Below, piece by piece: positions 13,143-43,410 of a DNA stretch of 64,000 nt. The first letter of the stretch is position 1, and every line of letters begins with the position of its first letter. Location of the stretch: NCBI GenBank assembly GCA_947167515.1, contig CAMVIM010000007.1, forward strand, positions 1-64,000. Direction: 5' to 3'. The stretch is from an uncultured Prevotellaceae bacterium (lineage in GTDB: Bacteria; Bacteroidota; Bacteroidia; Bacteroidales; Bacteroidaceae). The notes beneath the pieces are model-generated. The model ran no database searches. It had not been told where the DNA came from and worked only from the letters and a program-made list of their open reading frames with translations. Both the position numbers and the translations under genes were made by a program.

Positions 13143-16100
13143 TTAAGGTGTTGGAGTAGGAGTAGGGGTTGAGGTTGGCACTTCCTTCTTTCCGATGGTC
13201 ACGTGGGTATCGCCCGTCACCTCGGCATTGTTGCCACCACCATAGACGTTGTCACGAATATCAACACCGAGGACAGTGTATTTCTTATAGTAGGTTACCC
13301 CATCTGAGGCTTTGCCAGAAACAAGTGTATATTTATCTTCGCTCTTCGTGTAACAATTAGCAGGCAGTGTGGCACCGACCTTGACTGGTATCTCCATATA
13401 AATATCGTCACCTACTGCCGTACCGATGTTGACATAAGTATCGCCCATGACCTTGGCTGCGTTACCACCTCCAAAGACACTGTAGATGGAACCCATCTTA
13501 CCCTTCTCATGAGAAGGCAAGATGACATTATGTCCAGCTATTTCTTTGGTCTCGCCATCGTAATCAGAATAGTATTTTGTTGTGGATTCCTCAATATATG
13601 ACTTATTCTGTGCCTCGCTGTCTGGGTCTCCCACCTCGTTGATGTTGACCATAGGACTGCCTACCATCAGGGCATCTTCACCATAGCCACCACCAAAGAC
13701 AGTGCCGATGCTGGTGAAGGATTTAATATTCACCTGGGGGGCGGCATAGAGTGGATTACTCGGAGCACTTGCATCAGTTGGTTTGACTGGTACCCACACC
13801 TTCACGCTTTCTTCATCACCAGTTTGTTCATCAATCACAGTCTTTGTTTCTTCTCTATAACCATAAACAGAGTAAGGTGCTTGGTTACCACCGCCATAAA
13901 GCTCGCCGATGATGATAGGACGGCAACCCACCTCTTCGATGTTCACCGTGATGTCACCGCTGATGGTTCCACTAAGGTTATTTCCACCAAACACACGGTC
14001 AAAAGTGCCATTGGTGATGGTCAGCGTGACATTATCCTTAATGTCGGCAGCCTGAGCACCTCCATAAACCTCCTTAAGACCCGGAATACAAGCCATGAGC
14101 AGTTTTGCCTCAGCATCCATCGGGGCACTTTTACCACCACCATAAGCCTCATCCACATCAAAATCGCAAACAGGAAGACCTCCGTCTGTCACTTCCTCCA
14201 GCATGGTGAGTGCTGTCTCACGGACATTACCCTTTGTATTAGAACCACCGAATACACGATGAATGGTTCCACCCTTGACGATGACGTTAGCCAAGCCGAT
14301 ACCGTAGCGATATGCAGCAAAGGCATCGCCACTGATTCTTTCATCTTTGGTTGGGAATTGTTCCTCTACCAAATGATAATCTTTATAACCTACGTTTGCA
14401 CCGGGGTTTGGATCGCCATTAGGAAGGGCATCCTTACCATTACCACCTCCGAAGAGTTCTCCGATCTCAAAAGTACCGTTGATGGTTACTAATGTGGCTG
14501 GTGTGGAGGCAGCATTACCGCCACCATACACTTGCCCAATACTTGTGAGGCCACATCCGTCGATGATGACACAGGTCGTGCCATTATCATCCTTTGGAGT
14601 ATAAGCAGCGAGGTTACCGCCACCATAGACAGCTGGCACATCGAAAGAGCTTAAATCATACTCGCCATTCGAATCTTTCGTACCCTGAACCTTGGCATTC
14701 TTCACCTCTCCATAGTTGGTAATGCGTGAGGCTCCGTTGCGCTGGGTCTTATAGATATGTACGGTAGAAGTGCCTTCCGGCGAACTGTTGACGTTGTTGC
14801 AACCGAAGATAGAGCCTAAGACGATACAACCCTGATCAGCATCGTCAACTCCGTTGTTCAGTTCTACGGATACATCCTTTGAAATACCATAGTTAATATC
14901 TTCTGTCGTACCCATGCAGCCACCATAGACATTCTGATGGATGGTACCACCTGTCAGGCTGACTGAGAGGTTGCCATGATCGTCACCCTCCTGCATCTTG
15001 CCGTAACGGGAATCATCTGCCATCGCAAAGTAAGTTCCTACCGAAGCGATACGTCCACCGCCGTAGGCAGAGCCCTTGAGGGTGCCACCAGTAATGGCCA
15101 GGCTTGCATTGCCGCCCACCACACCTGCGGTTAGTGCTCCCACGTGACCTTGTCCTGCACCAAAGACGTTGCCGTCGTAGCCAGATTGACCATCACAACC
15201 AATCATTGTAGTCTTACCCTCCGGCTGACTGATAGTAGTAGTGGCACTACCCATCACATGACCGTCCTCACCACCACCATAGACAGCACCATATACAGTA
15301 CCATTAGAGATATTAACTGTTGTAGAAGCGACGTTCGTGCTTGTATTGAAGAATATACGCTTATCACCCATGCCGGCACCATATATATTACCGCAGTTGG
15401 GGTTATTCTTAATATCAGTTGATGTACGAGGCACTCCGATGGTACCACCTGTCATAGTGACGGTGACAGCGCCATCAATGTCGGCCATCTCGCAACCACC
15501 ATAGAGGTTATTCAGGATATGCCCGCCAGAGACGGTGACAGAGGCAGTTCCTCCAACATGTCCAGCAGACTTCAGCCACAAGCCTGGGGCGTATGGGTAG
15601 TAACCGGAACCTCCGGCAAATACGTTGCCAAAGAATGTGCGACCGTCAGTTGCGACAGGACGTCCGCCTTCCGATGTTGCCTTCCTGTCTGCCTCGGGGA
15701 TATATTGGAAGTTAGTGTAGTCGTATGTTCCACTCGTGCTGGCATACTGGTCGTGGGTAGCACCCATACCAGCCTCAGTATATTCCCAGTGAGCAGTGCC
15801 AGCCAGACTTGTTGACGATGCAAACTCATCATCGGTATAGGCTCTGTCCATTTCTTCACCGCAACCAATCTGTCCGCCCTTAATCTCTACCTCAGTATTG
15901 TGCAGCACGTGTCCGCTCTCACTGCCTCCATAGACGGAGCCGCAGACTAATGCCGTGCCCTCGATTGTGACCTTGGTATTGTCAAAGAAAGCACAGGTCT
16001 CAACGTTAGGATTGAGGACGGGGTATTTAGAAGTACCCCTGCCAGCACCAAATACGTGGCCGCAATCATCAGGACCATCATTACCATGCCCTGTCATTGT

Positions 16101-19100
16101 AGCATTGGTCATACCAATCTGGCCTCCACTGATATTGATGGTACAAAGACCTGTATTCTCAGCACAGGAAACAGGCATGCCGTCTTGAATGTCATTGGTT
16201 CCATCAGCATCAAGAGTGTATGTGCCCACTGAGCCCATAGCACCACCACCATAGACATTGTGAACCACATGACCGCCATCAATCAGCACAGTAGTATTAC
16301 CACGCACGATACCAGCATTGAAGACGTAGTATGTCTTACCATCAGTTCCTGTATAGGTGTCCGTACCGCAACCTGCACCATATACGTTACCACGATAAGG
16401 ATAGCGGGCACCTGAGTAGGTGATATCATCCGACTCATCTTCTTGTGTTCCACCATCATCGGTAATAGTTCCACCTTCTGGAATACCAATAGTACCACTA
16501 TGGATAGTCACCGAGGCATCATGGAAGTTATGTCCATTCTCACCACCGCCATATACAGATCCCTTTATGGAAGGACCCGTTTTTGAACCTTGAGTACCAA
16601 TAGTCACATCCGTATCGTACACCCAAGCCATCTTATCAACATTCGCATTCGTTTCAGGATTGCCCTCCAAACCACGTGATGAACCGAACACCATACCATT
16701 ATTATCACCGTTGCTTCCGATGGTTCCTCCTATGATGGAAACAATACACTTACCTTTATTATCAGTAGTGATCCAACCAGTTGGAAATCCTGTCGTCGCA
16801 TCGTAGGAGGAGAATGTACCCACCGAACCGAAGGCACCGCCACCATAGACATTATGCAGAATGGTAGGCGAGCCACTGATGCTAACAGTTGTACTGCCCT
16901 TCACGATACCAGCAGCCACATCATCAGCCTTACCCTTACCACCACCAAAGACGTTGCCATACTCGGCACCGCCTAGTACAGTGGTACCAATCGTGGTACC
17001 AATCGTTCCACCAGTAACTTTCACTGAAGTATTGCCACCTACCGCAGATTCCTCACCACCGCCATAAACACTCTTGCCTACTTTCATGACCTTACCGTTT
17101 TCATCAGCTACCGTATTGCCATTGATGGTGAGCGTAACAATACCGCTGACAGCACCTAAGTTGGTAAGAGGTATCTCTGTATATAAGTAGTTTTTGGGGT
17201 CTGTTTCCGTTGCCGCCGTAATTGGCGAACTGGTTGAACCTTTATCGTGAGTCCAATAATAAGTAGTAGAGGTACCACCCGTCTGAGGTTTAATCATACC
17301 AGTATAGGTGTTGACTACCGGAGGAGTCTTGTCCGTGTTGCTGATAGTAACTGTACCTGCAGAAGCTGAGTAGCCTGCTCCAAAAACCGCTCCTTTGACT
17401 TTACAATTATTAAGTGTTGAGGTGACGTTACCTGTGACGCCACCAAGGAAACCGCCACCATAGAAATTGGTATTGATGGTGCAGTCGGTCAATGTACTCG
17501 TAACGTTGCCGGTATTGGTAGTAGCAAACTGAGCAGAGTAGTAGTAACTACGATTAACCACTTTACTTGCTTGGTCACCTGTAGAAGTGTTGATTATCTC
17601 TAAGTCATAGTCGGCTTCATAGCCCTGATCCTTACTGAGATACTTTCCAGAGGTATAATTAGAATTGATGGTGCTACTCCAATCGGAGACAGGCTCTCCC
17701 GTGGCATCGGTATTGGCATATTGTACATAGTTTGTGCCGCCATTGCCTGCGCCGAAGTATTGGTTAAAGATAGTATTAGTGGCACTTGTGGTGACGGTCT
17801 TGCCCGACACCATATCACCGAACTTAGGACCACCGCAATATTTGCCCACGATACTATTGTCAATGACCACATCAATGCTGCCTTTCACGATCTTGTAAGT
17901 TGCACCATCTTTTTGGGACATCACACCACCACCATAGAATTCGCCAATGAGCGCATGATTGATACGCCAAGTAACATTACCAGCAATTCCCTCCTTATAG
18001 GCTGCGGCAATAGTGCCAAAGCGACCACCATCAATATAACAATGGGGGTTGTCATCATAGGGTGCAATGGCCTCATTGTAACCACCAGTGAGATAGAAAC
18101 TGGTAAAGTCACCTCCAAGAGCATTGACAGCACAATGGCGTGTCTGGTACTTGGCTTGATTATTGACATGGGCTCCAGGTGTAAATGAAGGCATAACAAT
18201 ATGACCGCCAAGAATGACGTAGTTAATATTTTGAGTAGTTTCACCATTACGGCCACGGCAATACTGGTCGTATATACCGCCATTGAGAATTATAGGACCT
18301 TCGTCACGCTCTCCAAGTTCAAACTCAAACTGTCCGAAGCGGATAAAGGCTGTTTCAGTAACCTCGAAATGTCCTTTTGAACGGTAGCAGCCAAGTGAGA
18401 AGAAATTTTTTGAATCATGCAGTTTACCTGCAATACCCAACTCCACCACTGGGAGAAAATCGAAACGTATAGGGGCAATAACCTGACGTGCCATTTCTTT
18501 ACCGAGTTGCCATTCGAGACAATAGTCGGGTTCTTCATCGAAGTCAAGGTCGGTACTCATAATAGTGAAACCGCGCGTGTTTTGGGTGGCATGTAAAACG
18601 TCATTTTTACCCACAGACTCCTGCACATTACCCACTAGTACAAGAGCATAGTCATAGACCGTCTTTATCGCATCGATATTTGCATCAGTCAGAGCACCTC
18701 TTATCGAAGTCTCTATAGTTGCACCATTGAAAGTACTGCTACGTGTGCCAGCAGGGGCGAAAGCGGAGCCTGTTTTGCCTAAGGTGATATTGACACGGTC
18801 ATAGGAATATTCGTCGTTTCCTACATAGATGGCTTTGCCCCAATAGGCTTCAATAGTAATGGATGTGACACTATCTGGAACATAATAGTTACCACCTTGT
18901 GCAAAGACACGTCCACTCTTACTATAAAGGTCTTTTTCAGTGCATTTGCGGTCAGCAAAGTTGTAGCCGTCCTGCCAGTCAGCGACAAATTCACCTTTTG
19001 TGCCACCGTTAACTACAGTGATCTTCCATCCTGTTACAACTTGGTCTGTGTAATTATTAGCATACTTCTCTGCCCATGTGTTAGCATTAGGGTTACCGAA

Positions 19101-21899
19101 TACCGTGTTGTAATAAGGCAACTGTATCTTACGATAGCCGAAGTCATAGCGCAGTGTGTCCATATCGGTGATGGGGATATACAGTGTCTTGCTTGAGGCG
19201 GACGAATGGCTGCCAGAGTTAACGTAAACTGTTAAAGTGCCAAGTTGCTTGCCCTCATAAGGATTGGCAGTAGCACGGTCAACCCAAGGAGTGCCGGTGT
19301 TCCCGTTGATGACAGAAGCATATTTACCGAACGGCTTCAATATAGGGTATGGAGCAATGTTTGGGTCAACTACCCACTTATACATCAATGAGGCATCCTT
19401 CGGAATGGCTTGCACCTGAGCGGTGGTCAATGTGCTTGGGGCAACGTCGGAACCAACCCACCAGCCGCAGAGTTCGCGGTTACTGTTCAGCAGGCTACGA
19501 TGGAACTCCACCTGGGTAAGATAACGCTCCTCAGCTGGGAAAGAGCAATTGTAGGCTGTGGGTCTACCATTACTAGTAGTGAAGGTTGAACCACTTCTGT
19601 AATAGTTGTAGCTGCTGATGCCAGTTGCGGCGGCATTAGTAATCAAAGTGCCACCATAAACTCCATGTTGGTTTGTGCCGCCTGTGATGTTACCATAGAA
19701 CATACAGTTAACCACAGCAGTCTTAAGATTAGTATATTGTCCACCTGAATCTTCTGCGGTTGACGCAAAGGTATTCTGTCCCACAATTCCTGCCGCTCTG
19801 GTGGAAGCGCTGACATCTGCATAGCTGTAGCAATTGATGACACGAGAATCTCCATCTAACTTACCTACAATACTTCCGGCGCAGGCGCCTGTAGTAGTGA
19901 CGGTAGGATGAGTGCCCTTTGGGAAGGTTGCATCGTTAGGCAATATACCGCAGTTATAAATACGGCTATAACCTTGAGCGATGCCGGCAACGGCACCAAC
20001 ATTAGCAGCAGAACTGCTGATGCCAACATTCTTAAGTGTTACATTCTTTACTACACCACCATCAACGGTGTTGAAAAGTGGGTGTGACAAATCACTAATT
20101 GTATAGCCGTTCCCGTCAAATGAGCCTGTAAATGCTGTAGTGATGGCATTTGTGCCGCTGGCAGAGACATCAGACTCAAGCTTATAACTTGCAGAAGCGG
20201 TAGTTCCGTTGTTGACATTTGTTATAAAGTTGGTAAAGTCTGTTGAACTATAAATTAAATATGGATCCTCAGGAGTTCCAGAGCCAATCTTAAGTTTCAT
20301 GGAAGCCCTCTCTGACTCTGTATAGTCGCTATGTCTGGCTACTACAGTCACAGTTGTAGGTAGTTGATCTACGGTGAAAGCGACAGGTCCACTATATAGT
20401 GTCTCAGAACCGCCTCCCAAAGTATAATATAAGGTAGCATTTGTAGGCATACTACACGATAAAGTAAATGTCAGACCATTTCTAGTGATGACAGGCGTTG
20501 CACATTGAAGTATTACTACTCCGTTACCCACAGCAGAGGTAATCATATTGTCCTTGACAGCGATTGCCTTGATATTTACCTTGCTGACATTATCAGTTAA
20601 CGGGCTGCTATATACTGCACTTGAGGTTGTTGGATCGCTGCCATCAGTAGTGTAATAGATAGTAGCATCTGGCGTAGTCGTTGTGATGGATATTGCGTTG
20701 CTACCGTTATTCTGGATAGTAGGCGTTTCCACCTGTGTAAGAGCAAGCTCAGCCACATCAGAAGTAGGGTAAATGGTATGTGTCGCAATTGCCTTTATTG
20801 TAGTAGGGCTATTAACAGAAAATGACTCACTATATGGTGTACTTGAGGCAGTAGGATTGCTGCCATCAATAGTGTAATATATGGTGCTGCTCGGAGTAGC
20901 ACAATTGATGGATACCTTCGAGGTGGTGTAGTCGTAGGTGATGACTGGTGTGGCACAAGATGCAGGAGTAACTGCTTTTTCGGCCACTTTCGTAAGTACG
21001 ACACCATAACGCTCCACAATAGCTTTCAAAGTGACTGACGATGTCACCGTATAATTTTTGCCTTCCATGATAGGGCTGCTGGCAATTGGAATAGAACCGT
21101 CAGTGGTGTAACGGATATTGTATCCATCAGGCAAGCCATTATCATCAGCAACTGTAACTGTACTATTCTCCTCCACATCGCTGATAATGGGAGCATCAAG
21201 TAAGTCGGATGTAAATGTCCATGCTGGAGTACCACTAGAATAGCATTGGATTAGACCATCACGTCCTTCGCCATTTTGAGGTTTATCATCTGACTTAGAC
21301 CATGTCAACCATTGTCTGTCATTTCCAGCAGCACTATTAAAAGTATAGTTGGAAGTGTTACTCACACTATTTAATCCCGGTTTAGGAGATATTTTATAAG
21401 GACTGTTATCGTTGTTTAATACAAAGTAAGTATATTCAATATTCTCAGCAGTAGGTTCATCTGTAAGCCATATGTCTCTGTCTCCATATGTATTTTCTTT
21501 GGTGTTATTTGATTTCGGAAATTGTCGTATGACAACATATTTGTTCAGTCTGGGATTAATCAATTGAATGTATCCTCCTGTCACATTTTTCACCACCCAA
21601 TGGCTGTAAGATTTGTCGTGTGCAGGATAACTGACACCATTGTTATTGACGGCCTCAACTGATGTTGTTAACGAAGTAGTTATATAACGGTAGCCTGTAG
21701 TTGCATTAGTAGTCACTGATGGCCAAAGATACCCTTTATTCGTGGCATTATTTTGAATGTAATAAATACCGTCAGAAACCTTTGTCTGTCCCCACACACT
21801 TCCACTTCCTAACACAAGAAGTAGGAACATGGACATAGTGAGCTGTAACCTTGTTACTTGCTTTTTAATTCCGTATGTTGTACTCATATCTTGTTTCAT
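13143..21899 (-). CDS. Giant secreted YGGG-ladder protein B (2918 aa)
   Basis: A probable surface adhesin. A signal peptide ends near residue 38 (or start at M5, ATG 21887). Residues about 40-230 are a unique head. Four CHB_HEX_C-like modules with (T)IYYT(T/I)DGSxP follow at about 235-535, then a GLUG-like segment (SFDGNGYTISDL, about 600) and a mixed region to about 1300. From there to the end is a ladder of roughly 33 (V/L/I)(Y/F)GGG-type rungs, each followed by short beta strands such as TVNISGGxIG, which suggests a right-handed beta-solenoid. The protein stops in the linker PTSTPTPTPTP with no T9SS sorting domain. ATGA overlap couples it to giant A upstream. Function is inferred from architecture and its place in the pilus locus. 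Confidence 0.85.
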   Translation of the reverse strand: MKQDMSTTYGIKKQVTRLQLTMSMFLLLVLGSGSVWGQTKVSDGIYYIQNNATNKGYLWPSVTTNATTGYRYITTSLTTSVEAVNNNGVSYPAHDKSYSHWVVKNVTGGYIQLINPRLNKYVVIRQFPKSNNTKENTYGDRDIWLTDEPTAENIEYTYFVLNNDNSPYKISPKPGLNSVSNTSNYTFNSAAGNDRQWLTWSKSDDKPQNGEGRDGLIQCYSSGTPAWTFTSDLLDAPIISDVEENSTVTVADDNGLPDGYNIRYTTDGSIPIASSPIMEGKNYTVTSSVTLKAIVERYGVVLTKVAEKAVTPASCATPVITYDYTTSKVSINCATPSSTIYYTIDGSNPTASSTPYSESFSVNSPTTIKAIATHTIYPTSDVAELALTQVETPTIQNNGSNAISITTTTPDATIYYTTDGSDPTTSSAVYSSPLTDNVSKVNIKAIAVKDNMITSAVGNGVVILQCATPVITRNGLTFTLSCSMPTNATLYYTLGGGSETLYSGPVAFTVDQLPTTVTVVARHSDYTESERASMKLKIGSGTPEDPYLIYSSTDFTNFITNVNNGTTASASYKLESDVSASGTNAITTAFTGSFDGNGYTISDLSHPLFNTVDGGVVKNVTLKNVGISSSAANVGAVAGIAQGYSRIYNCGILPNDATFPKGTHPTVTTTGACAGSIVGKLDGDSRVINCYSYADVSASTRAAGIVGQNTFASTAEDSGGQYTNLKTAVVNCMFYGNITGGTNQHGVYGGTLITNAAATGISSYNYYRSGSTFTTSNGRPTAYNCSFPAEERYLTQVEFHRSLLNSNRELCGWWVGSDVAPSTLTTAQVQAIPKDASLMYKWVVDPNIAPYPILKPFGKYASVINGNTGTPWVDRATANPYEGKQLGTLTVYVNSGSHSSASSKTLYIPITDMDTLRYDFGYRKIQLPYYNTVFGNPNANTWAEKYANNYTDQVVTGWKITVVNGGTKGEFVADWQDGYNFADRKCTEKDLYSKSGRVFAQGGNYYVPDSVTSITIEAYWGKAIYVGNDEYSYDRVNITLGKTGSAFAPAGTRSSTFNGATIETSIRGALTDANIDAIKTVYDYALVLVGNVQESVGKNDVLHATQNTRGFTIMSTDLDFDEEPDYCLEWQLGKEMARQVIAPIRFDFLPVVELGIAGKLHDSKNFFSLGCYRSKGHFEVTETAFIRFGQFEFELGERDEGPIILNGGIYDQYCRGRNGETTQNINYVILGGHIVMPSFTPGAHVNNQAKYQTRHCAVNALGGDFTSFYLTGGYNEAIAPYDDNPHCYIDGGRFGTIAAAYKEGIAGNVTWRINHALIGEFYGGGVMSQKDGATYKIVKGSIDVVIDNSIVGKYCGGPKFGDMVSGKTVTTSATNTIFNQYFGAGNGGTNYVQYANTDATGEPVSDWSSTINSNYTSGKYLSKDQGYEADYDLEIINTSTGDQASKVVNRSYYYSAQFATTNTGNVTSTLTDCTINTNFYGGGFLGGVTGNVTSTLNNCKVKGAVFGAGYSASAGTVTISNTDKTPPVVNTYTGMIKPQTGGTSTTYYWTHDKGSTSSPITAATETDPKNYLYTEIPLTNLGAVSGIVTLTINGNTVADENGKVMKVGKSVYGGGEESAVGGNTSVKVTGGTIGTTIGTTVLGGAEYGNVFGGGKGKADDVAAGIVKGSTTVSISGSPTILHNVYGGGAFGSVGTFSSYDATTGFPTGWITTDNKGKCIVSIIGGTIGSNGDNNGMVFGSSRGLEGNPETNANVDKMAWVYDTDVTIGTQGSKTGPSIKGSVYGGGENGHNFHDASVTIHSGTIGIPEGGTITDDGGTQEDESDDITYSGARYPYRGNVYGAGCGTDTYTGTDGKTYYVFNAGIVRGNTTVLIDGGHVVHNVYGGGAMGSVGTYTLDADGTNDIQDGMPVSCAENTGLCTINISGGQIGMTNATMTGHGNDGPDDCGHVFGAGRGTSKYPVLNPNVETCAFFDNTKVTIEGTALVCGSVYGGSESGHVLHNTEVEIKGGQIGCGEEMDRAYTDDEFASSTSLAGTAHWEYTEAGMGATHDQYASTSGTYDYTNFQYIPEADRKATSEGGRPVATDGRTFFGNVFAGGSGYYPYAPGLWLKSAGHVGGTASVTVSGGHILNNLYGGCEMADIDGAVTVTMTGGTIGVPRTSTDIKNNPNCGNIYGAGMGDKRIFFNTSTNVASTTVNISNGTVYGAVYGGGEDGHVMGSATTTISQPEGKTTMIGCDGQSGYDGNVFGAGQGHVGALTAGVVGGNASLAITGGTLKGSAYGGGRIASVGTYFAMADDSRYGKMQEGDDHGNLSVSLTGGTIHQNVYGGCMGTTEDINYGISKDVSVELNNGVDDADQGCIVLGSIFGCNNVNSSPEGTSTVHIYKTQRNGASRITNYGEVKNAKVQGTKDSNGEYDLSSFDVPAVYGGGNLAAYTPKDDNGTTCVIIDGCGLTSIGQVYGGGNAASTPATLVTINGTFEIGELFGGGNGKDALPNGDPNPGANVGYKDYHLVEEQFPTKDERISGDAFAAYRYGIGLANVIVKGGTIHRVFGGSNTKGNVRETALTMLEEVTDGGLPVCDFDVDEAYGGGKSAPMDAEAKLLMACIPGLKEVYGGAQAADIKDNVTLTITNGTFDRVFGGNNLSGTISGDITVNIEEVGCRPIIIGELYGGGNQAPYSVYGYREETKTVIDEQTGDEESVKVWVPVKPTDASAPSNPLYAAPQVNIKSFTSIGTVFGGGYGEDALMVGSPMVNINEVGDPDSEAQNKSYIEESTTKYYSDYDGETKEIAGHNVILPSHEKGKMGSIYSVFGGGNAAKVMGDTYVNIGTAVGDDIYMEIPVKVGATLPANCYTKSEDKYTLVSGKASDGVTYYKKYTVLGVDIRDNVYGGGNNAEVTGDTHVTIGKKEVPTSTPTPTPTP

Positions 21900-24800
21900 T
21901 TCACTGAAATCTTTTTGTTATACTTGCCACCAGCGGCGCGGACGATATAGACACCACTCATGGGGAGTTGGGTCTCAACGGTCTCGCCTGGTTGGATGGT
22001 GAACGATGCGATAGTCAAGCCACTGGTGTTGACAATGAGCACATCGGTGGCTGTCTGGAGTGAGGATGTCACACCAATGAGGTGCTTCTTCGTGTAGAAG
22101 GTGAGTTTGCCGTCCACTTCTTCCTTCCTTGGGTCGTTGTCTTCGAAGACGAAGGAGGTATCATTGTTGGTGAAGACGATGTGCTCAGCCACTCTTCGGG
22201 AAGGAGCGGGTGCAGAAAGGGAACCTGCTATGAAATAGGGACGGAAGGGCACGGGGGCCGTAGCTGCATCCGTCTTGTCAAAGCTGCTTCCATCGCTGTT
22301 GAGCAGGTAGCCCTCCACCTCCTTGCTCATATAGTTAGGCAAGAAGGTGTAGCCATCCTTAGCCGTATTGGTCAGTTCGACGTCGCTCACACCAATGGGG
22401 CAGTTTTCTGGTGAGACAAACGTGACAACCTGTTCACCCGGACTCTCTATGACCCCATTCTGATAGCGGTTGGAGGGTGTCCAAGTGCCGCTCAGGTCGA
22501 ACTCATAGTAGCGACTGCCGGGGAAGCCGATGATGTAAGGTGTGCCCTCGGTAAGGTAGGGATAGTTCGTCACAGGATAGAGTCCCTTAAGATACCCAGT
22601 GCTGTAATACAACTTCTGGTACTCATCCTCATTCCAGTCACGGTATTCATCCTTGCTATAATAGGTGTCAAAGAGGTACGTGTTGGTATAGTCCTTCGTG
22701 TTGCTGCCTGCAGCTGGAGCGTTGAAGTCGGCGGTATAGACACCTTCCACCTCTGCATCATTCTCATCCTTCTTCTGCTTCACATTGCCCGCAAACTCAC
22801 GCAACCAGTACTCATGTCCAGTCAGACTACCTGCATAGAAATGGGTGATTTCACCCTTATCCTGAGTGGTGACAAGTTCAGCCGCAAAGGGCAGACTGAT
22901 GCCTTCCCAGCCCGTGTTCTGGTCAACGAAGTTGTCGGGTCTGCGCTGATACCACATGCGGTAGTTTCCCATGCTGTAGCGAATAGGACAGTTGAAGTCC
23001 TTCTTATCGACCAGCAGATGGTCGTTAGCTGCCGTCAAGTCGTTCAGCACCAGATGACCGTGGATAGTTGAAGTCGCTATCGACACACGGCGGTAGTCGT
23101 CATCTATATAATAATATGTATAGTCAGGATCGACGAAGTAGTCGGTCAGCACATCATAGGTCTTCGCGTTGACTTCTGCTGAAGGCGCATAGACCAGCAG
23201 GTTGGGTGTCTCACCCTCATTGAGGATGCTTAACAAACCTTCCGTGTTGTCGAGCAGGGGCGGATAGAACGCTCCTGTGGCAGTACCCAACGACCAGGTG
23301 ATGTCGTTGTGTCCAGCGAAGTCAACAGCCGTCATGTTAGGATAAGCATCCTTGAAATCAGTATCCGAAATGGTCTTGGGTGCCGACTTGGCGGCGAGCA
23401 CAGCCCAGAGGTTATAGTGAACCTTATCCATTTGCTTGCTCTGGTAGTAGGCTGGAGCACGATAGACGCGGTTGTTCGAGTTGTTGACGGGCAGTCGTCC
23501 ACCGCTCTTGGCAATGTGCGATGGCAGGTCTTCGTGAGCCTGAGTAGCACTATAGCCGTAGGTAAGCATCTGTCCAAAGTAGAGGTAGTCGTCAGGCCAG
23601 ACGGGCGAATAGGTCACCTCACTGCTCGTTTCACCAGGAACCACCCTCATGCGCTCATCGTATGCCTCGGGTATCGAACCCTTGGCATAGATGAAGTCGC
23701 CATCCTTATAGCGTCTCTCCACGTAACCCACATCACCGTACTTGGCATCGGGCGAAGCAGGATAGTAGCCTGTAAGCGGTGTTTCGGACAGTGTGCCGTT
23801 CTCTTCCTTGAGGTACTCGTACTTCGTTCCGCTGGTCAGTGCAGCATGGTCGTAATAGCGCTTGTTCAGATAGAATCCGTTCAAGTTGTAGGTTACCGTA
23901 CCATTGTAGAAAGCCCGTTCTGGCATTGAGGTGGCTAAGCCACGACTGTTGTCGGAGGTGTCGTAATTCTTACCATCTTGATAGTAGCAGTTCACCAACT
24001 GAATGCCATTGCCTCGTGAGGGATTGCCAAAGACAGCCTTGACACTACCATCAGGTGTACCTGTGGTGTTAATCCAGCAATTCTCAACGTAGCCGCTGCC
24101 CGTATCGACAACACCTGCTGAGGTGAATGAACCCGTCACGCCGAGGTTATAGACATTACCGCAGAGCTTGCCAAAGAGAGAGTTGTTCAGTCCGTTGATG
24201 GTATAGCCGTCACCATGCAGTGTACCCGCGAAGCACTGAGTATTGTCACCGATGGGTGTCCAGTCGGTGTAAGCCTTGGGTGATACGTTGCTGTTGAGGA
24301 AGAACTCAAGGTCGGCACCGCCCTTGACATGGCTGTTCAGAAGGGCATGATCCTTCGTTGCACCCTCAGTTGCCACCTCCGTCTGTAAACTCAGGTCGAA
24401 GAAGTCCTTCAAGAGGTCGAGTTCGCTCTTCGTGGCATCGCTCTCACAGTCACGGTTATCAATGTATATCTTCGAGTTGCGCATCACATTAGGATGATCC
24501 ACATAGAGGTGGTGCTCCTTATCCTTCATGATGGCATCGAGGTCGTGGTAGTTAGCCACGGTCAGAGGCACGTAGTTTGAATAGGTCTTACCCAGATAGG
24601 TCTTCGAGTAGAAGGCCAGGAATACCTTCTGGTTCTGATACCAATAGAGTGGAGTGCCATTGATGGTGAACGGAGTACCGTTGCGGTGCAACTGGGCATC
24701 TCCCTCAGAATTGAACAGTTCCCAACCATTGACCAATACTTCATAAAGTCCTGGATTCACGCTGGGTGCCTTCATACCGAGCGTGGTACCAGGAAGTACG

Positions 24801-34421: not shown

Positions 34422-34441
34422 GAGTTGAGATTTACAAGTTA

Positions 34442-34466: not shown

Positions 34467-35648
34467 TTACCAGTTATAGACTTCGTGGTCAACCTCAGTG
34501 GTGCGCCAGTCCATCACATCGACCATGTTCACGTTCAGATTGTTGGCGCCGTAGTAGGCATAGACAATCCAACTGTGGTTACGGGTGAAGTCGCCGTCAT
34601 CGCTCATGGTGAAGGTGGCTGACTTTTCCACATCTGCCACACTGTAGCGGATGGTGCCCGTGAGTTTTCTGTCTGTCTCGCGCAAGTAGAAAAGGCCTGC
34701 TTGAGTCAGTTTTTCTTCTTGAACCCCTTTGTCGATGAGCTGCTCATACTCCTGTCCGTCCTTTTCTTGCGCATAGGCATAGACGATGGGGTCTTCGTTG
34801 GTTCTCACATCGCTGTTCCAGTTCACCAGCACCTTGGAGTCTTCCTCATAGGTGGAACCGATGCGGTAGTTCCGCTGGGTATAGTCTTCCGTCAGAAAGA
34901 CAAATTCCTGCATGGGTATCTTTTCGCCATCCAGCGTGATGTCCAGCAGTTGGAACGTCCCATCCATCTGGTCGGCGCGGCTCGCCACGAAACGAAGCTT
35001 TGACACGGTCCTGACCAACCGGGCTGTAGCCATCTGGTTCTCGGTGCCAATACGCAGCACGGGGGCAGAGCCATAGACAGGCTGATTGCGCAGGGTTCCC
35101 GACATGGGCAGTCCCGCTGTGGGGACAGATGTAACCAGGGTGGTCAGGCCAAAGGGGTCAACACTGCTGCCGTCACGATGCTCCATCTTCGCAGCCTCCA
35201 GTTCTGCTGGGGTTGTGGTTTCGCCCAAAGTAATACCCGTTGTGGCGGTCGCCATGTTAGCCACCACATAGACATCCACGGCGGGCTTGTTCTGCACAAA
35301 GTCATCATCCACCACCATCTGGTAGGTCTCACCTCCCAGGGTATTCAAGTTCTCCACCTCGCTGGTGGACAGATAGCCCACCAAATCACCACCACCATCA
35401 CCATCACTATGTGTAAAGACCCAGATTTGCAGGGTCGTTATTTCGTTCTCAACACTCCAGGCATCCACGGTACCGATGTCAGCACGAGTCGGCTGCGGAT
35501 GCTCCGGTGCATAGACATAAATGCTCAGCACACAAGGCTCATCCTCATCAGCAGCACCACGCCCCTCCGTGCATGCTGCCAACACACAGGCCACCAGCAA
35601 AAGCGGCCCCATCAACCATGCCATTCTATGTCTATCTCTTCCTTTCAT
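34467..35648 (-). CDS. FimA-family fimbrial lipoprotein
   Basis: The signal peptide ends at LAAC, giving a lipoprotein. The N-terminal FimA-like domain has the typical LSIYVYAPE, then TRADIGTVDAWSVENEITTLQIWVF (read in parts), a hallmark first-strand region of P_gingi_FimA domains. The second lobe holds KLRFVAS, and the protein ends with NHSWIVYAYYGANNLNVNM, as in minor fimbrillins. ATG at 35648 gives MKGRDRH; the open frame runs three codons further, to a TTG. It is spaced 16 bp from the gene upstream, so is co-transcribed with it. It is likely an accessory pilin (FimC/D/E or Mfa3/4-like). Confidence 0.82.
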   Translation of the reverse strand: MKGRDRHRMAWLMGPLLLVACVLAACTEGRGAADEDEPCVLSIYVYAPEHPQPTRADIGTVDAWSVENEITTLQIWVFTHSDGDGGGDLVGYLSTSEVENLNTLGGETYQMVVDDDFVQNKPAVDVYVVANMATATTGITLGETTTPAELEAAKMEHRDGSSVDPFGLTTLVTSVPTAGLPMSGTLRNQPVYGSAPVLRIGTENQMATARLVRTVSKLRFVASRADQMDGTFQLLDITLDGEKIPMQEFVFLTEDYTQRNYRIGSTYEEDSKVLVNWNSDVRTNEDPIVYAYAQEKDGQEYEQLIDKGVQEEKLTQAGLFYLRETDRKLTGTIRYSVADVEKSATFTMSDDGDFTRNHSWIVYAYYGANNLNVNMVDVMDWRTTEVDHEVYNW

Positions 35649-35664
35649 TTTTCTCAATGCTCCA

Positions 35665-37422
35665 CTATTCCAAAATCACATTTTGGGGTTCAGCCTGCAC
35701 CCACTGGGTCGTAAGCTGAACGCCGATTTCCAGTCGGGGCTGCAAGAGATTGGGCAGCACCCTATAGGCCTTGGCCAGACTTTGCACCGTCATGCTCAGT
35801 GTGGTCGTATAGTCTTGAGTGAACACGCGCTTCTTATAGTCATCTGCATTGGCTTCCACAGGTTGGGGCTTCACACTCCCCACCAGATAGAACTTCGTTC
35901 CCTTGTAAATCATGCCATCCACCCCCTTGAAGTCGGTGTCACTATTGTTCACAAATTCCAGCACCACCTTCACTTCCTCACCGTCGGCATTCTGCAACAC
36001 CAGCGTGTTCGTGGGGCTTGACTCGCTCACGGTCGTGCTCAAATAGTAGTAGTCGCCGCCATTCGTCTTCACCTCGCCATCATAGACAAAGCAGACATCG
36101 GCATCCGACAGAGGTTCTATGGGCTTGAAGTCGAAGCCCACCGGGCGTTGACCGCCCACTATCACAGCCGTCATAGGAAAAGCCTTGGTACCCACCGTCA
36201 CCATTGTACCATCAGCATCAGCCAGCTGCGTTGTTGCCACTCGGTTCAACTTCACTTGCAGACACGCCACCGCATACTGGATGGAGTTCTTGATGGCCAC
36301 CGCCTGCGTGTTGGGACTCACCGTTCCGTTGTCATACTCATACTTCTCCAGCACTTTCGCCCACTGATCGAGTGTCCCATAGAACTGCTCGCGGTCATCC
36401 TGATTCGAGGTGCGGATGCGGCTATTGGCAAAGTAGTACAGGTCGGCAGGATAGGCATAGCGGATGAGCGTGTTGACGGCAGCCAACGTGGTCGTCACCG
36501 TCTGCGGAACAAAGGCATTGCCCTCCCAACGGAGGACAGCAGCTCCATCGGGCAAACCGATGGAAGCAGGGTAGTTGTCGTTGGTGCCCAGGCTGGTCAC
36601 CTGTTCGGTCGTCGTGTCGAACACCACGCCTGTTCCCTCCTTGATGCGCTGCAGAATCTCTGTCTGCAACTTGGCCTCCGTAGAGCCTGGCGTGAAGGGC
36701 ATGGACTGCACACTCTCGTAGAGCGCATTGACATACACCCGCACATTGACCGACGAACCCGCCATCAGTCCTGTGCCTACATTCTGCTGATTGATGAAGT
36801 TGAGATAGCATGCCTTGAGTCCCAGGTTTGCCACATTCTTCCAAGCCACCGTCCCGTCCAGCGTTGTCACCTCCGCATGGGCGATGTCAGTCAGATAGGC
36901 AGCCAGTGCCGTGGCTTGCGCCGTAGGTGTCGAAGAAGCCACGATGGGGTCTGGCCGAAATTGGATGTCGGCAGGCTGCATCAGGGCAGGCATGATTGCT
37001 TGCAGTGAACCATAGGAAGACTTGGAACCGCCATCAGGCAGCGTGGCATGACCATAGAAAAGCACCGCATTGGTACCCGCCACAAACTGACAGTCAGCAT
37101 AGTGGTAGAACCAGGCATTCGTCTTCTCGTAGGGCGTTCCGAGCGTACCCACCATGAAGGCTTTCGGATGGTCAGACACTGTCACCCGCTCCCCTGCAAT
37201 GTTGAAAGGAAGCACAGACACCGCATCCATACCTCTATACTGGCTGGCCTGAGTCTGCACCGCAGCATCCGCCATGCGTGTCGGCTGCTGAGCCCTACTT
37301 GACAAAGAGAAGGCTAAATCAACATTTACCTTCTCGTCGCCATAAACTGCCTCATTGCTGTCCTGACAAGCCGTCAGTCCAACCACGGCCAGCAATAGTC
37401 CTATGTATTTCTCACACTTCAA
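35665..37422 (-). CDS. Fimbrillin-family lipoprotein, paralogue of the Mfa1-like subunit
   Basis: The lipobox is LTAC, and no ATG lies near the signal peptide. TTG at 37422 gives MKCEKYIGLLL; another TTG lies two codons upstream, and a stop closes the frame just before. The C-terminal 150 residues align with the 739-residue subunit at 38600-40819: EFVNNS-x-x-DF-x-G, then FYLVGS versus FYITGK, then RVFTQDYTTT versus RRIFIQDYMTT, and final beta strands ending NVILE versus EVILG. So these two are paralogues and probably both polymerise or cap the shaft. PTRMAD near residue 50 is a candidate Arg cleavage site. Confidence 0.82.
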   Translation of the reverse strand: MKCEKYIGLLLAVVGLTACQDSNEAVYGDEKVNVDLAFSLSSRAQQPTRMADAAVQTQASQYRGMDAVSVLPFNIAGERVTVSDHPKAFMVGTLGTPYEKTNAWFYHYADCQFVAGTNAVLFYGHATLPDGGSKSSYGSLQAIMPALMQPADIQFRPDPIVASSTPTAQATALAAYLTDIAHAEVTTLDGTVAWKNVANLGLKACYLNFINQQNVGTGLMAGSSVNVRVYVNALYESVQSMPFTPGSTEAKLQTEILQRIKEGTGVVFDTTTEQVTSLGTNDNYPASIGLPDGAAVLRWEGNAFVPQTVTTTLAAVNTLIRYAYPADLYYFANSRIRTSNQDDREQFYGTLDQWAKVLEKYEYDNGTVSPNTQAVAIKNSIQYAVACLQVKLNRVATTQLADADGTMVTVGTKAFPMTAVIVGGQRPVGFDFKPIEPLSDADVCFVYDGEVKTNGGDYYYLSTTVSESSPTNTLVLQNADGEEVKVVLEFVNNSDTDFKGVDGMIYKGTKFYLVGSVKPQPVEANADDYKKRVFTQDYTTTLSMTVQSLAKAYRVLPNLLQPRLEIGVQLTTQWVQAEPQNVILE

Positions 37423-37491
37423 AAGCAAATCCGTTCAGTTTAACCTTATCACCACAAAATCCATAACCACAAAAACCGTACAGGAATCACC

Positions 37492-38499
37492 TCACAGCTC
37501 CTGTTCATAGTGTCCGCCATCGCTCCAGTCGAGGGTCACACTCACGCCCACCTTTGAATCGGTAGGATGCGCAACGCCATCCTCGTCCAGATAGGCTTTC
37601 ACGATTTTCAGTTCGCCAGGTTTCAAGGGTTCATAAACGCTCAACACCGTTTCCGTCACACTGCCATCGTCCAGCGTCACATAGACACGGAACTCCCACA
37701 GTGCCTTGTCACCCTCGGCCTTCGTGCGTGAGGGGAAGTTGACAGAGCAGAAGCAGAGCTGGTCAGTGCCCGTTGCTACAGACTTGGTGCGCACAAGGGG
37801 GTCTTTCTCGGCAAACGTGTAGGTTGAGTCGTTCACGTTGAAGCCCGTGGCAAAACCCGTGCTGAACACTTCCACCTTCTTGACCTGCTGACCACGTGGG
37901 TCGATGACCAGGGCGGCAGCACTGTTCGCCATGAAGAGATTCACGTGGAAAGTCTGATCCTCCCCTTCCTTCACATCCATGTCGGTTCGTGCGGTGAAGA
38001 GTCCCGTTTCGTGCGACTCCACTGTTTCCGCCTTTTTCTGCTGAAGCGTCAGTGTCGAACTCTGTTCTCCACCTTCCTTCTTCACCCACGAATTGTCCTC
38101 CAGATTGGCCAAGGCGAGATGACGATACTGATGTTTAGGCAGATAGAGCTCATAGCTCTTTTCGTCGTCGTTCATATCGTGCGACTCGTGGTGAAGGAGT
38201 TCGCGTTCTTCATCCACATCATAGAAAGACAGGTCAATGTCTTGGGCATAGGCGGTAAAGACATTTGTCAGGTGGTTGTACAAGGCATCTGCCACCTGCT
38301 GTTCCGTCTGCGTGGTCAGCTGCGCCCGCAACTCCATAGTGATGTCCGTCACCAACTGCAACTCATAGACCATTTCGTAGTCGTTACCTTCGGGAGGGCA
38401 GTCGGAGAGGTCATCGTCAATGGTGCTGCAAGCCACCTGCGTCATCATGACCAACAGGCAAGCCAACCCAATCATCCCATATCTCACAAAACCTTTCAT
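37492..38499 (-). CDS. FimB/Mfa2 family fimbrial anchor lipoprotein
   Basis: A 335-residue lipoprotein (QVACS lipobox) with the family's early DLSDCPP motif and two beta-sandwich lobes. In P. gingivalis, Mfa2 and FimB anchor the fimbria to the outer membrane and limit its length; the same job is inferred here. ATG at 38499 is used; the open frame begins one codon earlier with GTG. It sits directly after the major fimbrillin gene, the usual Mfa1-Mfa2 order. Confidence 0.85.
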   Translation of the reverse strand: MKGFVRYGMIGLACLLVMMTQVACSTIDDDLSDCPPEGNDYEMVYELQLVTDITMELRAQLTTQTEQQVADALYNHLTNVFTAYAQDIDLSFYDVDEERELLHHESHDMNDDEKSYELYLPKHQYRHLALANLEDNSWVKKEGGEQSSTLTLQQKKAETVESHETGLFTARTDMDVKEGEDQTFHVNLFMANSAAALVIDPRGQQVKKVEVFSTGFATGFNVNDSTYTFAEKDPLVRTKSVATGTDQLCFCSVNFPSRTKAEGDKALWEFRVYVTLDDGSVTETVLSVYEPLKPGELKIVKAYLDEDGVAHPTDSKVGVSVTLDWSDGGHYEQEL

Positions 38500-38599
38500 C
38501 ACGTCTTTTCTACGATGTTCTTTCTATATTTATAATTAAATAATGTATAGTTGGGAATGCACGAGCAAGGTGCATCCCCAACTATTAAAGTTCAGCTGA

Positions 38600-40819
38600 T
38601 TACTGACCGAGAATGACTTCACTAAAGTTAAGACCTGTCTGCCACTTCAAATCTACACTCAAACCGAGTGAAATCTGCGAAGAACGAAGGTCTGGAACAT
38701 CGACAAGTGCAGCCTGCAGAGAGTTGGCTCCAATCACGAAGTCGGCAGTGGTCATATAGTCCTGGATAAAGATACGACGCTCCTTGATGGTGGTGCCATC
38801 TGCATTATAAGGAGGCAGGGCATAGGGCGAACCTGTTGTTCCAGTTTCAGTTCCAGGCCATGTGATGCCTGCGCTACGGTTAGTCTCGCTAAGACCAGCA
38901 TCTGGATCCAGCTTACCAGTGATATAGAATGTCTGCCCATTACGGATGAGGTTGTGCATACCCCAGAAGTCCTTACCAGAGTTGTTGACAAACTCAAGAG
39001 CGATGTAAACAACGTTCTGTTTATTACCTTTCGAGGCTGCATTCCAGTTGTCCCATACCAAGGTGTAGTTAGCCGTGCTCTTGCCAGCATCCGCATTAGT
39101 ATTATAAGCAGGAATAGCCGTGCTGGGCAGGTCATTGTCATAGATGTATGAAGAGAACGTGGGGCTTGCGGCCTTGGCAATGTAGTTCCATCCCACTTCT
39201 GGCTCTACGCCACCAACCAAGACGCCTGTCAGGCTGAAAGTGCTTGATGATACAGTAATGGTGTTGTTTGCTTCGTCCACATGTCTACGGGCATTCTGAA
39301 TATTATGGTTGTTATCATTGAGGACATTTGCACCATAACGAACGGTGGTCTTCAACAAAGCTGTACCGTAGTTGATGTTCTGCTGCATGGCAACGCTGCG
39401 GGTGGTTGAGTACACGTGGCTGTTTTTTGTCCAGTCTGAAGCCCAACTGCCATCAGTATCCCAGTTTGTCACTCCATCGGGATAATTATTAGTTTCATGT
39501 GGTGTGTTTGATACACGAATAGGGCTGTTGCCGAAATAGCAAAGCTCTACGGGATAGCGGTAGTTGATGGGATTGAAAGTAGAAGTCACATCACCATTCA
39601 TAGCGTATGCGGGAATTGAATTATTATATGAATAGGTGAAGGTCCTGTCAGCATCACTTGCTGAGTTTTCAATCGTAATTTGCAAAACCGTAGCACCCTG
39701 AGGTACGTTGAATGAGATATGTGGGAAATTGTTGAGATCTTCTGTTACAAGATTTGTTTCAGTGGAGGCAAGGCCTGACAAAGTTTTCAAACCAGACAAT
39801 TCAGTCTTCCATGTTTTACCACTCGTGTCTATCATATTGCCAATCGTACTTTGCAATGCTCCTGCCACAGCCTTGGTAAGGGCTTCACCGCCAGAGGTCG
39901 GATTAGCACCAGCCACAGACTGGAGCACATCATATAGGTCGCCAAGCGTCTTTGCTACTGCAGGACCTGATCCGGCACGGGTCTCACCAGAATAGAAGGT
40001 ATTCATCGCAATGAAGGCGTCTGCCATGATTTCACCCAGCGGAGTGATGTCGTGGGATTCGCCACCCCACGTGAGAGTTTCTTTTCTTTTGATTGTGGTG
40101 CCTTCCATTGTAACATAGTCTTTCCAGCCGAAATTCGTTACAGAGTAGCTCGTTCCACCATAACTGACAGTGTAATCAGCCCTTGAGTCAACAAGTTTGG
40201 TAAGAAGAGCAGCAATCAATTTCTCATTCTGAAAGTAGGCATCTTCACCACCTGCACCAGAGCCAGCAGGAATACGTCTGTCGGCAGTAAATGAAATCTG
40301 GCTCAGATCTTTGTTGATATTCCAGGTCACAGATCCTTGCTGCTGGCTGGTGCCGGTCTTGATGGCTTTACCCCAGAAGAGCAGTGTATTAGTCTCTGTA
40401 GGCAACGACAGTTCGAGGACACGACGGGACTTTGGAGCAGAAGAGCCATCGCCGTCAGGATCAAGGGCACCTGCACCCAAAACAGTACCAAAGTCGTAGC
40501 TCTTGGCAGCAGTGGCGGCAGCAGCCAGACTCTTACCATCGGACAGATTAGTTCCGCTCTTCTGCGAGAATGTCATCAACGTAGCAGTATTGATGCCGCG
40601 GAAGTTTTCTGAGAGAGCTGCCTGCGTGTTGGCAGACGACATACGGGTGCCGTTGCTTGTAGCTACATTGAACACAAAGTTCACAGGAATCTCTTTTGTG
40701 TTCGAATTGTTATTAGAAATGGTTTCTGCCACATCGTTGTCCGTCGAGCAAGCAGTGAATCCCATTGCGCCTGTGAGTGCTATCGCTCCCAGCCAAGCAT
40801 ACTTGAAGTTCTTTTTCAT
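38600..40819 (-). CDS. Mfa1-like major fimbrillin lipoprotein
   Basis: The likely shaft subunit of a type V pilus: 739 residues, with lipobox FTAC (cysteine 24) and NGTRMSS near residue 60 as the expected Arg-protease site. It is longer than P. gingivalis Mfa1 (about 560) because of extra sequence in the middle. The C-terminal lobe (VYIALEFVNNSGKDFWGMHN, then RRIFIQDYMTTADF) fits the fimbrillin C-terminal domain, whose last strand is donated to the neighbouring subunit. It is the first pilin gene after the repeat array and GxxExxY gene. No -7 box was found just upstream, so it may depend on a promoter before the OmpA-like gene or one hidden in the repeats. Confidence 0.84.
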   Translation of the reverse strand: MKKNFKYAWLGAIALTGAMGFTACSTDNDVAETISNNNSNTKEIPVNFVFNVATSNGTRMSSANTQAALSENFRGINTATLMTFSQKSGTNLSDGKSLAAAATAAKSYDFGTVLGAGALDPDGDGSSAPKSRRVLELSLPTETNTLLFWGKAIKTGTSQQQGSVTWNINKDLSQISFTADRRIPAGSGAGGEDAYFQNEKLIAALLTKLVDSRADYTVSYGGTSYSVTNFGWKDYVTMEGTTIKRKETLTWGGESHDITPLGEIMADAFIAMNTFYSGETRAGSGPAVAKTLGDLYDVLQSVAGANPTSGGEALTKAVAGALQSTIGNMIDTSGKTWKTELSGLKTLSGLASTETNLVTEDLNNFPHISFNVPQGATVLQITIENSASDADRTFTYSYNNSIPAYAMNGDVTSTFNPINYRYPVELCYFGNSPIRVSNTPHETNNYPDGVTNWDTDGSWASDWTKNSHVYSTTRSVAMQQNINYGTALLKTTVRYGANVLNDNNHNIQNARRHVDEANNTITVSSSTFSLTGVLVGGVEPEVGWNYIAKAASPTFSSYIYDNDLPSTAIPAYNTNADAGKSTANYTLVWDNWNAASKGNKQNVVYIALEFVNNSGKDFWGMHNLIRNGQTFYITGKLDPDAGLSETNRSAGITWPGTETGTTGSPYALPPYNADGTTIKERRIFIQDYMTTADFVIGANSLQAALVDVPDLRSSQISLGLSVDLKWQTGLNFSEVILGQ

Positions 40820-40998: not shown

Positions 40999-41007
40999 TT
41001 CATCTCA

Positions 41008-41382: not shown

Positions 41383-41407
41383 CTCTCATGCTATGTATCT
41401 CTTTTTC

Positions 41408-41846: not shown

Positions 41847-41859
41847 TTCTATACCATCT

Positions 41860-43410
41860 TCATTTGTTCAGCATCCGCAGGTTTTCCTTTGCATCGGCAT
41901 TGCCTTGCTGGGCGGCCTGACGGAAACTATCCAGAGCAGCAGAGCGATTGCCCGTGTGCCAGAGGGCAACGCCGAGAGCGTTCCACGCACGTGGGTCATT
42001 CTTCACACCTTGGAGGAGGGTGAGAGCCTCGTTGTACCGTTCCTGTTGCAGGAGTTGCGAGGCTTGGTTGATGGTGGCGGCAGCGGTGTCGGGCACGTAG
42101 TCGTAGTAGATGCGCAGGTAGCCCGAATTACGCTGGTCTGCCAGCAGGTTCTGCTTGATGTAGGCGAAGGTCTTGCCGCCATTGAGCTGACGCAGGCGCT
42201 GCTCGCGACGGGTGAGGTCTGGCTCGCTGTCGATGATGCCCATTGCCTCGCGCAAGTCTGCACGACGACCGCCGTCCGCTTCTGCACCGCTGGCACCCAT
42301 CTCTTCGACGATGTCGTTGAGTTGGTCGCGCAGTTCAGCCCATGCCTCGCCTCCGTTTGCCAGATCGAAGAGGTCATCGGTGGCTTGGGGCACTTGCTGC
42401 TGCACGTATTTCTTGAGCGCCTGGCCACGGTCGGCTGCCAGTTGCTCATTGTGGTTCACGCTACCCTCGATGGAGGCGAGTCCGACAATCTGAATGCGGC
42501 GGACGGTACTGGTGGAGTCGGCCAGAACCTGACGGGTGATGCTGACGATGCGGTCGAGTGTCGGGGCATTGTCGCGGAAGTCATAAAGGAGTGTGCTCTT
42601 GTCCAGCGGGAAGTGGACGTAGAGGGCACCTTTTTCCTTGCGCAACACGCGGGTCCGGTCGTAGGGACGATATTCGGAAATGTGTGCCAGCACGGGGTTA
42701 TCCTTCTGAAGCATACCAGCGCGCCCCATGTTGTCTGCCACCTGATGGAAAGCCAACACAGGAGGTGGCGGTGGTGTGGTGTCGATGGGGGTGATGATAG
42801 GCTCGACAGGCTTCTTTTCCACCTTCTGATAGACGATGTTGAGGGTGAGCTTGGGAATGAAGAAGAGTTTGTTGTCCTTGCCGTAGTAGGTACCGCAGTG
42901 GGTGCAATCGTATTTCTTGAACCACGCATACCCCAAAGCTGCACCGAGTTCGCCCTCCATTCGGAAGTAACGGCTGATTCGCCACGAGCGGCCATAGAAG
43001 AGACCAATGGCGAAGAGGTCGCCCTCCACGCGGTGGTCGCGGACATCCTTGTACAAACCGAGCGGGAACTTCACATTCCCCACATTGTAGTGGCTGTAGA
43101 TGAGGTTGGTACCCCAATAGCCTTTATGGAAAGTGGAATCGGGCCACCAGCGCAGTTCGGGCGCAATCAGCAGGTGTCGCCACTTGCGCTCTTTCTTGTC
43201 GTCGGTGGGCCAAGGGCGATAACCTCCCGTGAGGCCGAGTGTCCAATGGGGCGACACGCGCACATCCACACCCAAGTTGGGAGTGCCCGTAAGGTCGTAG
43301 ATAAGGTTATTGCGCACGGCTACATTGCGCTGTGCGTAGGCAAGGCTGCCAAAACACAACAGCAACACCATGAACATAACCCATCTCCGTGTTACCTTAA
43401 ATCCCTTCAT
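41860..43410 (-). CDS. DUF3575 / OmpA-like outer membrane protein with TPR tail
   Basis: A 516-residue outer-membrane protein. The signal peptide ends at SLAYAQ. The DUF3575 beta-barrel-like region follows (about 20-200; RNNLIYDLTGTPNLGV, then GGYRPWP). A proline-rich linker (TPPPPPP) leads to an OmpA-type peptidoglycan-binding-like domain (about 270-400; YVHFPLDKSTLLYDF, RIQIVGLASIEGS). TPR repeats end the protein (YNEALTLLQG, AWNALGVALW). DUF3575/OmpA genes head several Bacteroidales fimbrial loci, probably as envelope partners. ATG at 43410 is chosen; 43443 (MKNEGKV) is an alternative. A -7-like box lies at 43570. Confidence 0.87.
   Translation of the reverse strand: MKGFKVTRRWVMFMVLLLCFGSLAYAQRNVAVRNNLIYDLTGTPNLGVDVRVSPHWTLGLTGGYRPWPTDDKKERKWRHLLIAPELRWWPDSTFHKGYWGTNLIYSHYNVGNVKFPLGLYKDVRDHRVEGDLFAIGLFYGRSWRISRYFRMEGELGAALGYAWFKKYDCTHCGTYYGKDNKLFFIPKLTLNIVYQKVEKKPVEPIITPIDTTPPPPPVLAFHQVADNMGRAGMLQKDNPVLAHISEYRPYDRTRVLRKEKGALYVHFPLDKSTLLYDFRDNAPTLDRIVSITRQVLADSTSTVRRIQIVGLASIEGSVNHNEQLAADRGQALKKYVQQQVPQATDDLFDLANGGEAWAELRDQLNDIVEEMGASGAEADGGRRADLREAMGIIDSEPDLTRREQRLRQLNGGKTFAYIKQNLLADQRNSGYLRIYYDYVPDTAAATINQASQLLQQERYNEALTLLQGVKNDPRAWNALGVALWHTGNRSAALDSFRQAAQQGNADAKENLRMLNK

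Follow-up and report, generated by a model that had tools for sequence, protein, structure and literature searches.

A 64,000-nucleotide stretch of DNA from an uncultured Prevotellaceae bacterium (contig CAMVIM010000007.1; hereafter the window) carries on its minus strand a run of lipoprotein genes of fimbrillin type (F1, an Mfa2-type gene, F3, F4 and F5) that leads directly into two giant genes, A and B. The locus is well conserved and an unusual variant among type V pilus loci, and the composite rod that we propose for it is a testable hypothesis. We place at about one in two the probability that it encodes a type V surface filament bearing a giant distal rod exported by the type IX secretion system (T9SS), with the rod in the slot of Mfa5 in Porphyromonas gingivalis, B stacked on A, and F5 as the adaptor. 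F1 would probably form the shaft and the Mfa2-type protein the anchor, F3 and F4 would be tip-side subunits, and F5 would be dedicated to mounting A on the pilus. A would be exported via its C-terminal sorting domain to fill the Mfa5 slot, and the uncapped C-terminal solenoid end of B would stack rung to rung on the uncapped start of A, yielding one composite beta-solenoid with the CHB_HEX_C and M26_N-type parts of B at the far end of the rod. Attachment matters in rumen fibre breakdown, and such a structure may serve to adhere to plant fibre, mucus or other cells. We infer filament formation, F5–A contact, B–A stacking, the export route of B and adhesion alike.

F5 and giant A as neighbors

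The window comes from contig C7 of genome G000, an assembly of 3.68 Mb in 74 contigs that is 98.85% complete. Among 101 genomes, the window's included, we found A in 22, B in 21, and F5, the 356-aa lipoprotein that we take as the putative pilus–giant A adaptor (33351..34421, minus strand), in 23. F5 is present in all 22 genomes with A and in one of the 79 without it, G022, where the frame after F5 is of YGGG type and close to a contig end. F5 lies immediately upstream of A in 19 of the 21 A genomes other than the window's, and in G030 and G034 a frame ending on a YGGG rung sits between the two. The gap from F5 to A ranges from -4 to 54 bp (median 22) over 34 listed pairs, which represent 32 distinct loci; in that list L109 and L111 share their contigs with G035 and G016, and L110 and L117 are near copies.

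The same arrangement recurs among 17 named loci, two of which (L106 and L114) begin within A; F5 is upstream of A in all 15 that hold upstream sequence. Of these named relatives, 15 carry a Prevotella or Prevotellaceae label and the other two are labeled no further than Bacteroidales. Every record is metagenome-assembled or ‘uncultured’, and the source, where the record title gives one, is the ruminant gut. Across 295 genomes of the order, a search recovered A in five besides the window's, belonging to two other families. F5 precedes A in all five, and the adjacency thus spans three families of the order, even though the pilins further upstream lie beyond BLAST recognition in four of the five. 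When all 41 listed F5 genes are considered, the next gene is A-like in 37, some of these being cut or frame-broken. After the other four come a YGGG gene with A behind it (G034), a YGGG frame (G022), a 3,928-aa open frame at a second F5-like locus (G030:C18, L163), and a gene that the contig end truncates (G034:C69). The sequence-only reading had treated pilins and giants as one system and proposed a search for conserved adjacency of fimbrillins and YGGG proteins; for the F5–A pair that adjacency is borne out (19/21, 15/15 and 5/5), and it favors the single system, while a physical role of A or B as tip or stalk is something we infer.

The giants and their split relatives

Giant A (3,812 aa, 11.4 kb; 21896..33334, minus strand) is comprised of a signal peptide, an N half made of YGGG solenoid, a C half and a T9SS sorting tail. 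Giant B (2,918 aa, 8.8 kb; 13143..21899, minus strand) has a signal peptide, CHB_HEX_C repeats, an M26_N-type stretch and YGGG repeats. Both signal peptides were read by eye. The YGGG-type repeats noticed earlier in both giants hold up well, as A has 31 [YF]GG motifs and B has 24, whereas 500 residue shuffles of each gave 4.6 and 4.4 on average and 10 and 11 at most. These repeats look like a beta-solenoid, a tentative reading that draws on the repeat, the DSSP pattern and a second-look alignment, and the predicted model of residues 21-820 of A is solenoid-like. Foldseek searches of the A model against the PDB and against viral models returned nothing at E<0.001.

The C-terminal tail of A matches the type A T9SS sorting domain at 23.6 bits (cut-off 23), and the whole of A scores 19.5 bits, under the cut-off. 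At E<=1, B has no match to a T9SS sorting domain, and neither giant matches a VWA domain in Pfam or an autotransporter beta-barrel in Pfam or NCBIfam. The giants had been put forward alike as candidates for a tip or stalk; they are probably not equivalent, with the T9SS tail on A only and an anatomy that suggests pieces of one solenoid. The repeats of A start a few residues past its signal peptide and those of B stop a few residues short of its C-terminus. The same bare rung stands at both ends, and no cap sequence was seen at the N-terminal solenoid end of A or the C-terminal solenoid end of B. Natural solenoids are usually capped, which prevents end-to-end stacking. Because the solenoid of A starts uncapped near its mature N-terminus and that of B ends uncapped near its C-terminus, we propose that B may stack on A.

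Across relatives, the first rung of A follows closely on the likely signal cut in 35 of 37 rows, mostly as AQIxIGGxVYGGGN; the two exceptions are G031, where repeats run from about residue 2144, and L107, whose frame is broken and whose row covers the second piece, the first piece having the usual start. At the other end, among all proteins of at least 700 aa, 31, the window's B included, have a terminal rung within the last 70 residues, a pattern into which genes cut by a locus end (e.g., L104) can also fall. By profile, the window's B contains modules M1 and M2, which are separate genes in G170 and L107; there, the first gene ends on a rung and the second opens on a rung, behind a likely signal peptide. 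Similar gene breaks occur in G027, G037 and G351. In seven chosen broken loci, the C-terminal side of the break falls at or within about 10 residues of a rung, and the N-terminal side within about 15 residues of a likely signal cut. The simplest account would be that such pieces stack to form a single rod.

Other relatives carry more solenoid ahead of A. G031 encodes a single 6,296-aa protein whose start looks GLUG-like by eye and which goes on with a long YGGG part, the C half of A and the sorting tail, and the order in G034 is F5, a YGGG gene and an A-like gene. The YGGG parts that precede A in G030, G031 and G034 score at most 38 bits against the B profile, too diverged for a clear match, and we consider them equivalent to those of B by position and anatomy. 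We had considered G030 and G031 as clean B–A fusions and dropped this, since the profile test supports A's part and not B's; they are A-like, with a longer N-terminal solenoid. A fuller version of the rod can be put forward tentatively, at rather less than even odds: a solenoid of about 6,000-7,000 residues might be assembled outside the cell from two to three separately exported chains stacked end to end on their bare terminal rungs, mounted on a type V pilus by the dedicated pilin F5, with the T9SS signal on the base piece only, and cut or joined at rung boundaries in evolution while remaining the same rod.

Two loci have an extra gene between A and B (L086:939-4415, 1,158 aa; L092:951-4547, 1,198 aa) with CHB_HEX_C, MBG_2 repeats and a seeming short tail like a T9SS C-terminal domain (CTD; by eye), and its first part resembles the start of the window's B. 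Two further YGGG proteins, L158 (G170:C24, 1,472 aa) and L159 (G351:C43, 2,426 aa), are similar to the N half of A.

Pilin genes, locus layout and transcription

By family model, predicted fold or orthologs, four of the genes upstream of the giants are type V pilin relatives: the Mfa2-type protein directly, F3 through its predicted fold, and F4 and F5 through their orthologs. The anchor lipoprotein (336 aa; 37492..38502, minus strand) matches PF08842 with an E of 3.6e-8 and 33.8 bits, above the cut-off of 21.2, which confirms its earlier description as Mfa2/FimB-like. F3 (587 aa; 35665..37428, minus strand) is a lipoprotein with a predicted fimbrillin fold, and its model, the sole one made for a pilin here, matches pilins of the type V kind. 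F4 (396 aa; 34467..35657, minus strand), a lipoprotein with a YNW end, appears to be a FimA-family relative: PF06321 is matched at E<=0.1 by 13 of 16 F4 members, the window's own not among them, and the F4 profile matches the Mfa3 structure 5nf4 (E 0.0056). Mfa_like_1 is matched at E<=0.1 by 4 of 24 F5 members, again not by the window's own, and the gene preceding F5 has an NW end in 39 of 41 F5 loci. F1 (739 aa; 38600..40819, minus strand), the putative major (shaft) pilin, had been called Mfa1-like; no pilin family model matched it, and what remains of that label is its homology to F3 (the F1 of G170 scores 4e-240 against the F1 profile and 1e-65 against the F3 profile) together with the predicted fold of F3. 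Searched against PDB sequences, the F5, F3 and F1 profiles found no pilin, and four weak F1 matches were to unrelated proteins.

A lipobox-like Cys is present in 11/11 F1, 14/14 F3, 15/16 F4, 23/24 F5 and 10/11 Mfa2-type proteins. The TR motif found in all 11 F1 proteins belongs to a loose [TSP]R pattern 15-75 residues past this Cys, which occurs in 11/11 F1, 12/14 F3, 14/16 F4, 23/24 F5 and 0/11 Mfa2-type proteins, and the putative maturation-site Arg is invariant in the F1, F3 and F4 alignments. Within G000 (98.85% complete), no separate gingipain-like protease for pilin maturation was found; the only C25 peptidase match of the genome (G000:C19:44976-46136) lies in an open frame of 1,101 aa, a length close to that of PorU. 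Mfa2 was also considered as a marker of this locus type, and was dropped: PF08842 is matched in 27 of the 79 A-negative genomes, and only three of its matches in A-positive genomes (G000, G001 and G014) are at this locus. Because anchors of the Mfa2 type occur in those 27 genomes, the giant is not general among genomes that have them.

The order on the minus strand is DUF3575-TPR, GxxExxY, F1, Mfa2, F3, F4, F5, giant A and giant B. Gaps from F1 through to A measure 97, 63, 7, 45 and 16 bp, and A and B overlap by 4 bp; remeasured genes and gaps agree with the strand, coordinates and spacings first given. The first gene (41860..43572, minus strand; the start codon is uncertain, with an ATG at 43410 possible) had been called DUF3575/OmpA-like. 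It matches PF12099 (E 8.7e-47) and TPR models, and no OmpA model. Its relatives lie upstream of the pilins and are the first locus gene in many relatives. Absent from the sequence-only reading are the hairpin described below and the GxxExxY gene (41008-41382), which follows the DUF3575 gene and precedes F1, with flanking gaps of 477 and 188 bp. Around it are four 163-bp repeats (40882-41892) that are 72-99% identical to the reference copy, and no GxxExxY gene was seen at this site in the upstream stretches of 20 relatives.

Between F1 and Mfa2 lies a 16-bp hairpin (38547..38585, minus strand; z -4.62, with 0/200 shuffles as stable), a putative attenuator or RNA processing element that is one of the terminator-like sites found in the window. 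Hairpins occupy the same gap in 6 of the 14 relatives listed, one of these six (G014) being a near copy of the window. A single transcript had been thought likely from the spacing; an unbroken run from the first gene is less secure than that, because of the GxxExxY gene with its 477/188-bp gaps and the strong F1–Mfa2 hairpin. A Bacteroidales-type promoter pattern matches the window three times and the locus not at all, and three matches are reached by 6 of 100 shuffles; counts of sigma-70 and terminator-like sites in the window are close to shuffled means. As judged by eye, 10 of 20 downstream loci have a DUF5106/thioredoxin-like gene directly after B (four of them Pfam-tested). The window keeps only a stub of it before a permease, a 32-codon remnant (13000-13098, minus strand) that is 78% identical (25/32) to the start of the L087 gene.

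Competing readings and known systems

Several observations weigh against an obligate union of pilins and giants. In identity correlations among the locus proteins, whose pairs are non-independent, F3, F4 and F5 diverge in step (r 0.77-0.90), A follows the five pilins weakly to moderately (r 0.05-0.55), B follows them less (r -0.05 to 0.26), and the A–B correlation is 0.22; F5–A coevolution, sought by this means, is at most moderate. The F1–F5 cassette of the window (33358-40981) is 96.7% identical to that of G014 (L073) over 7,625 bp, with a sharp drop at the F5/A boundary, and between these genomes identity is 45% for A and 81% for the DUF3575 protein. The whole pilin cassette has thus apparently been exchanged between species as one unit apart from A. 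B-like genes occur in four genomes that lack A, not beside pilins in G004 and near a contig end in G010, G023 and G025, and the YGGG proteins L158 and L159 show no visible sorting tail and lie away from pilins. Separate divergence, cassette exchange and A-less B genes limit how obligate the unit is.

It is possible, if doubtful, that A and B are independent adhesins and that their matching bare rungs reflect only where members of one repeat family commonly begin and end. This would account for their low mutual correlation and for the genomes with B and no A, as well as for five with A and no detected B, three of which (G030, G031, G034) carry other YGGG parts ahead of A or within it and two of which (G001, G039) have A cut by contig ends; it fits poorly with the breaks near rungs and signal cuts in the seven broken loci, and with the existence of parts of the window's B as separate genes elsewhere. 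We think it unlikely that pilins and giants share an operon for co-expression only, with the pilus and the giant T9SS adhesins as separate surface structures. Such an arrangement agrees with the weak to moderate giant–pilin correlation, with a cassette exchange that stops at the F5/A boundary, and with B-like genes away from pilins. Yet F5 is in all 22 A-positive genomes and is kept beside A in three families, even with other upstream pilins in four of the five distant genomes, and one particular pilin beside A counts against co-expression alone, which would not need it. Quite improbable is a short lipoprotein mount, formed by F1–F5 and holding a giant adhesin at the cell surface in place of a long filament: the giant is F5's most constant neighbor, the number and type of upstream pilins vary among loci, and sequence alone does not reveal a filament, but three features fit a polymer: a TR motif shared by F1, F3 and F4, the presence of a separate Mfa2-type anchor lacking it, and a hairpin after the first pilin that could raise F1 over the rest.

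The proposed filament with a distal rod can be set beside several known systems. The solenoid arrangement predicted for the N part of A resembles, in fold only, beta-helix adhesins such as TibA and antigen 43. Those are autotransporters, whereas A carries a T9SS tail and matches no autotransporter model. The type V pili described for gut Bacteroidales in sections of PMC12632263 likewise combine lipoprotein pilins with an anchor, and the predicted fold of F3 matches such pilins; the locus differs from them in its separate giant T9SS protein placed after an extra pilin, F5. The type A sorting domain of A recalls Prevotella intermedia T9SS cargo with a short or long CTD, and the seeming short tails of the extra A–B genes in some relatives recall the short-CTD cargo, as far as portions of PMC11969387 describe it; the word start ‘fimbri’ has no occurrence in the text of that paper, which thus holds no pilus-linked cargo under that word. 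The titles and abstract beginnings listed from the open-access literature contained no giant pilus tip of this kind and no YGGG proteins. New here are repeats that look like a beta-solenoid, matching bare end rungs, and versions split over more genes. If the proposal is true, the solenoid is built non-covalently from several chains, and the natural series of gene breaks makes stacking directly testable.

The Mfa1 fimbriae of P. gingivalis also join shaft, anchor and accessory lipoprotein pilins to a large T9SS cargo protein. Parts of PMC7835359, PMC5954841 and PMC7712824 place Mfa5, a T9SS cargo, at the fimbrial tip, and this location together with T9SS export means that coupling between a pilus and T9SS cargo exists. 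A passage of PMC5954841 reports that mfa5 is transcribed separately from mfa1-4; if our proposal is true, lipoprotein-pilin assembly and T9SS export are here linked in one operon. Mfa5 has 1,228 aa with VWA and Ig-like domains, whereas A and B together reach 6,730 aa, with YGGG repeats and no VWA match, and the distal rod on type V pili of rumen Bacteroidales would then exceed Mfa5 in size several times over.
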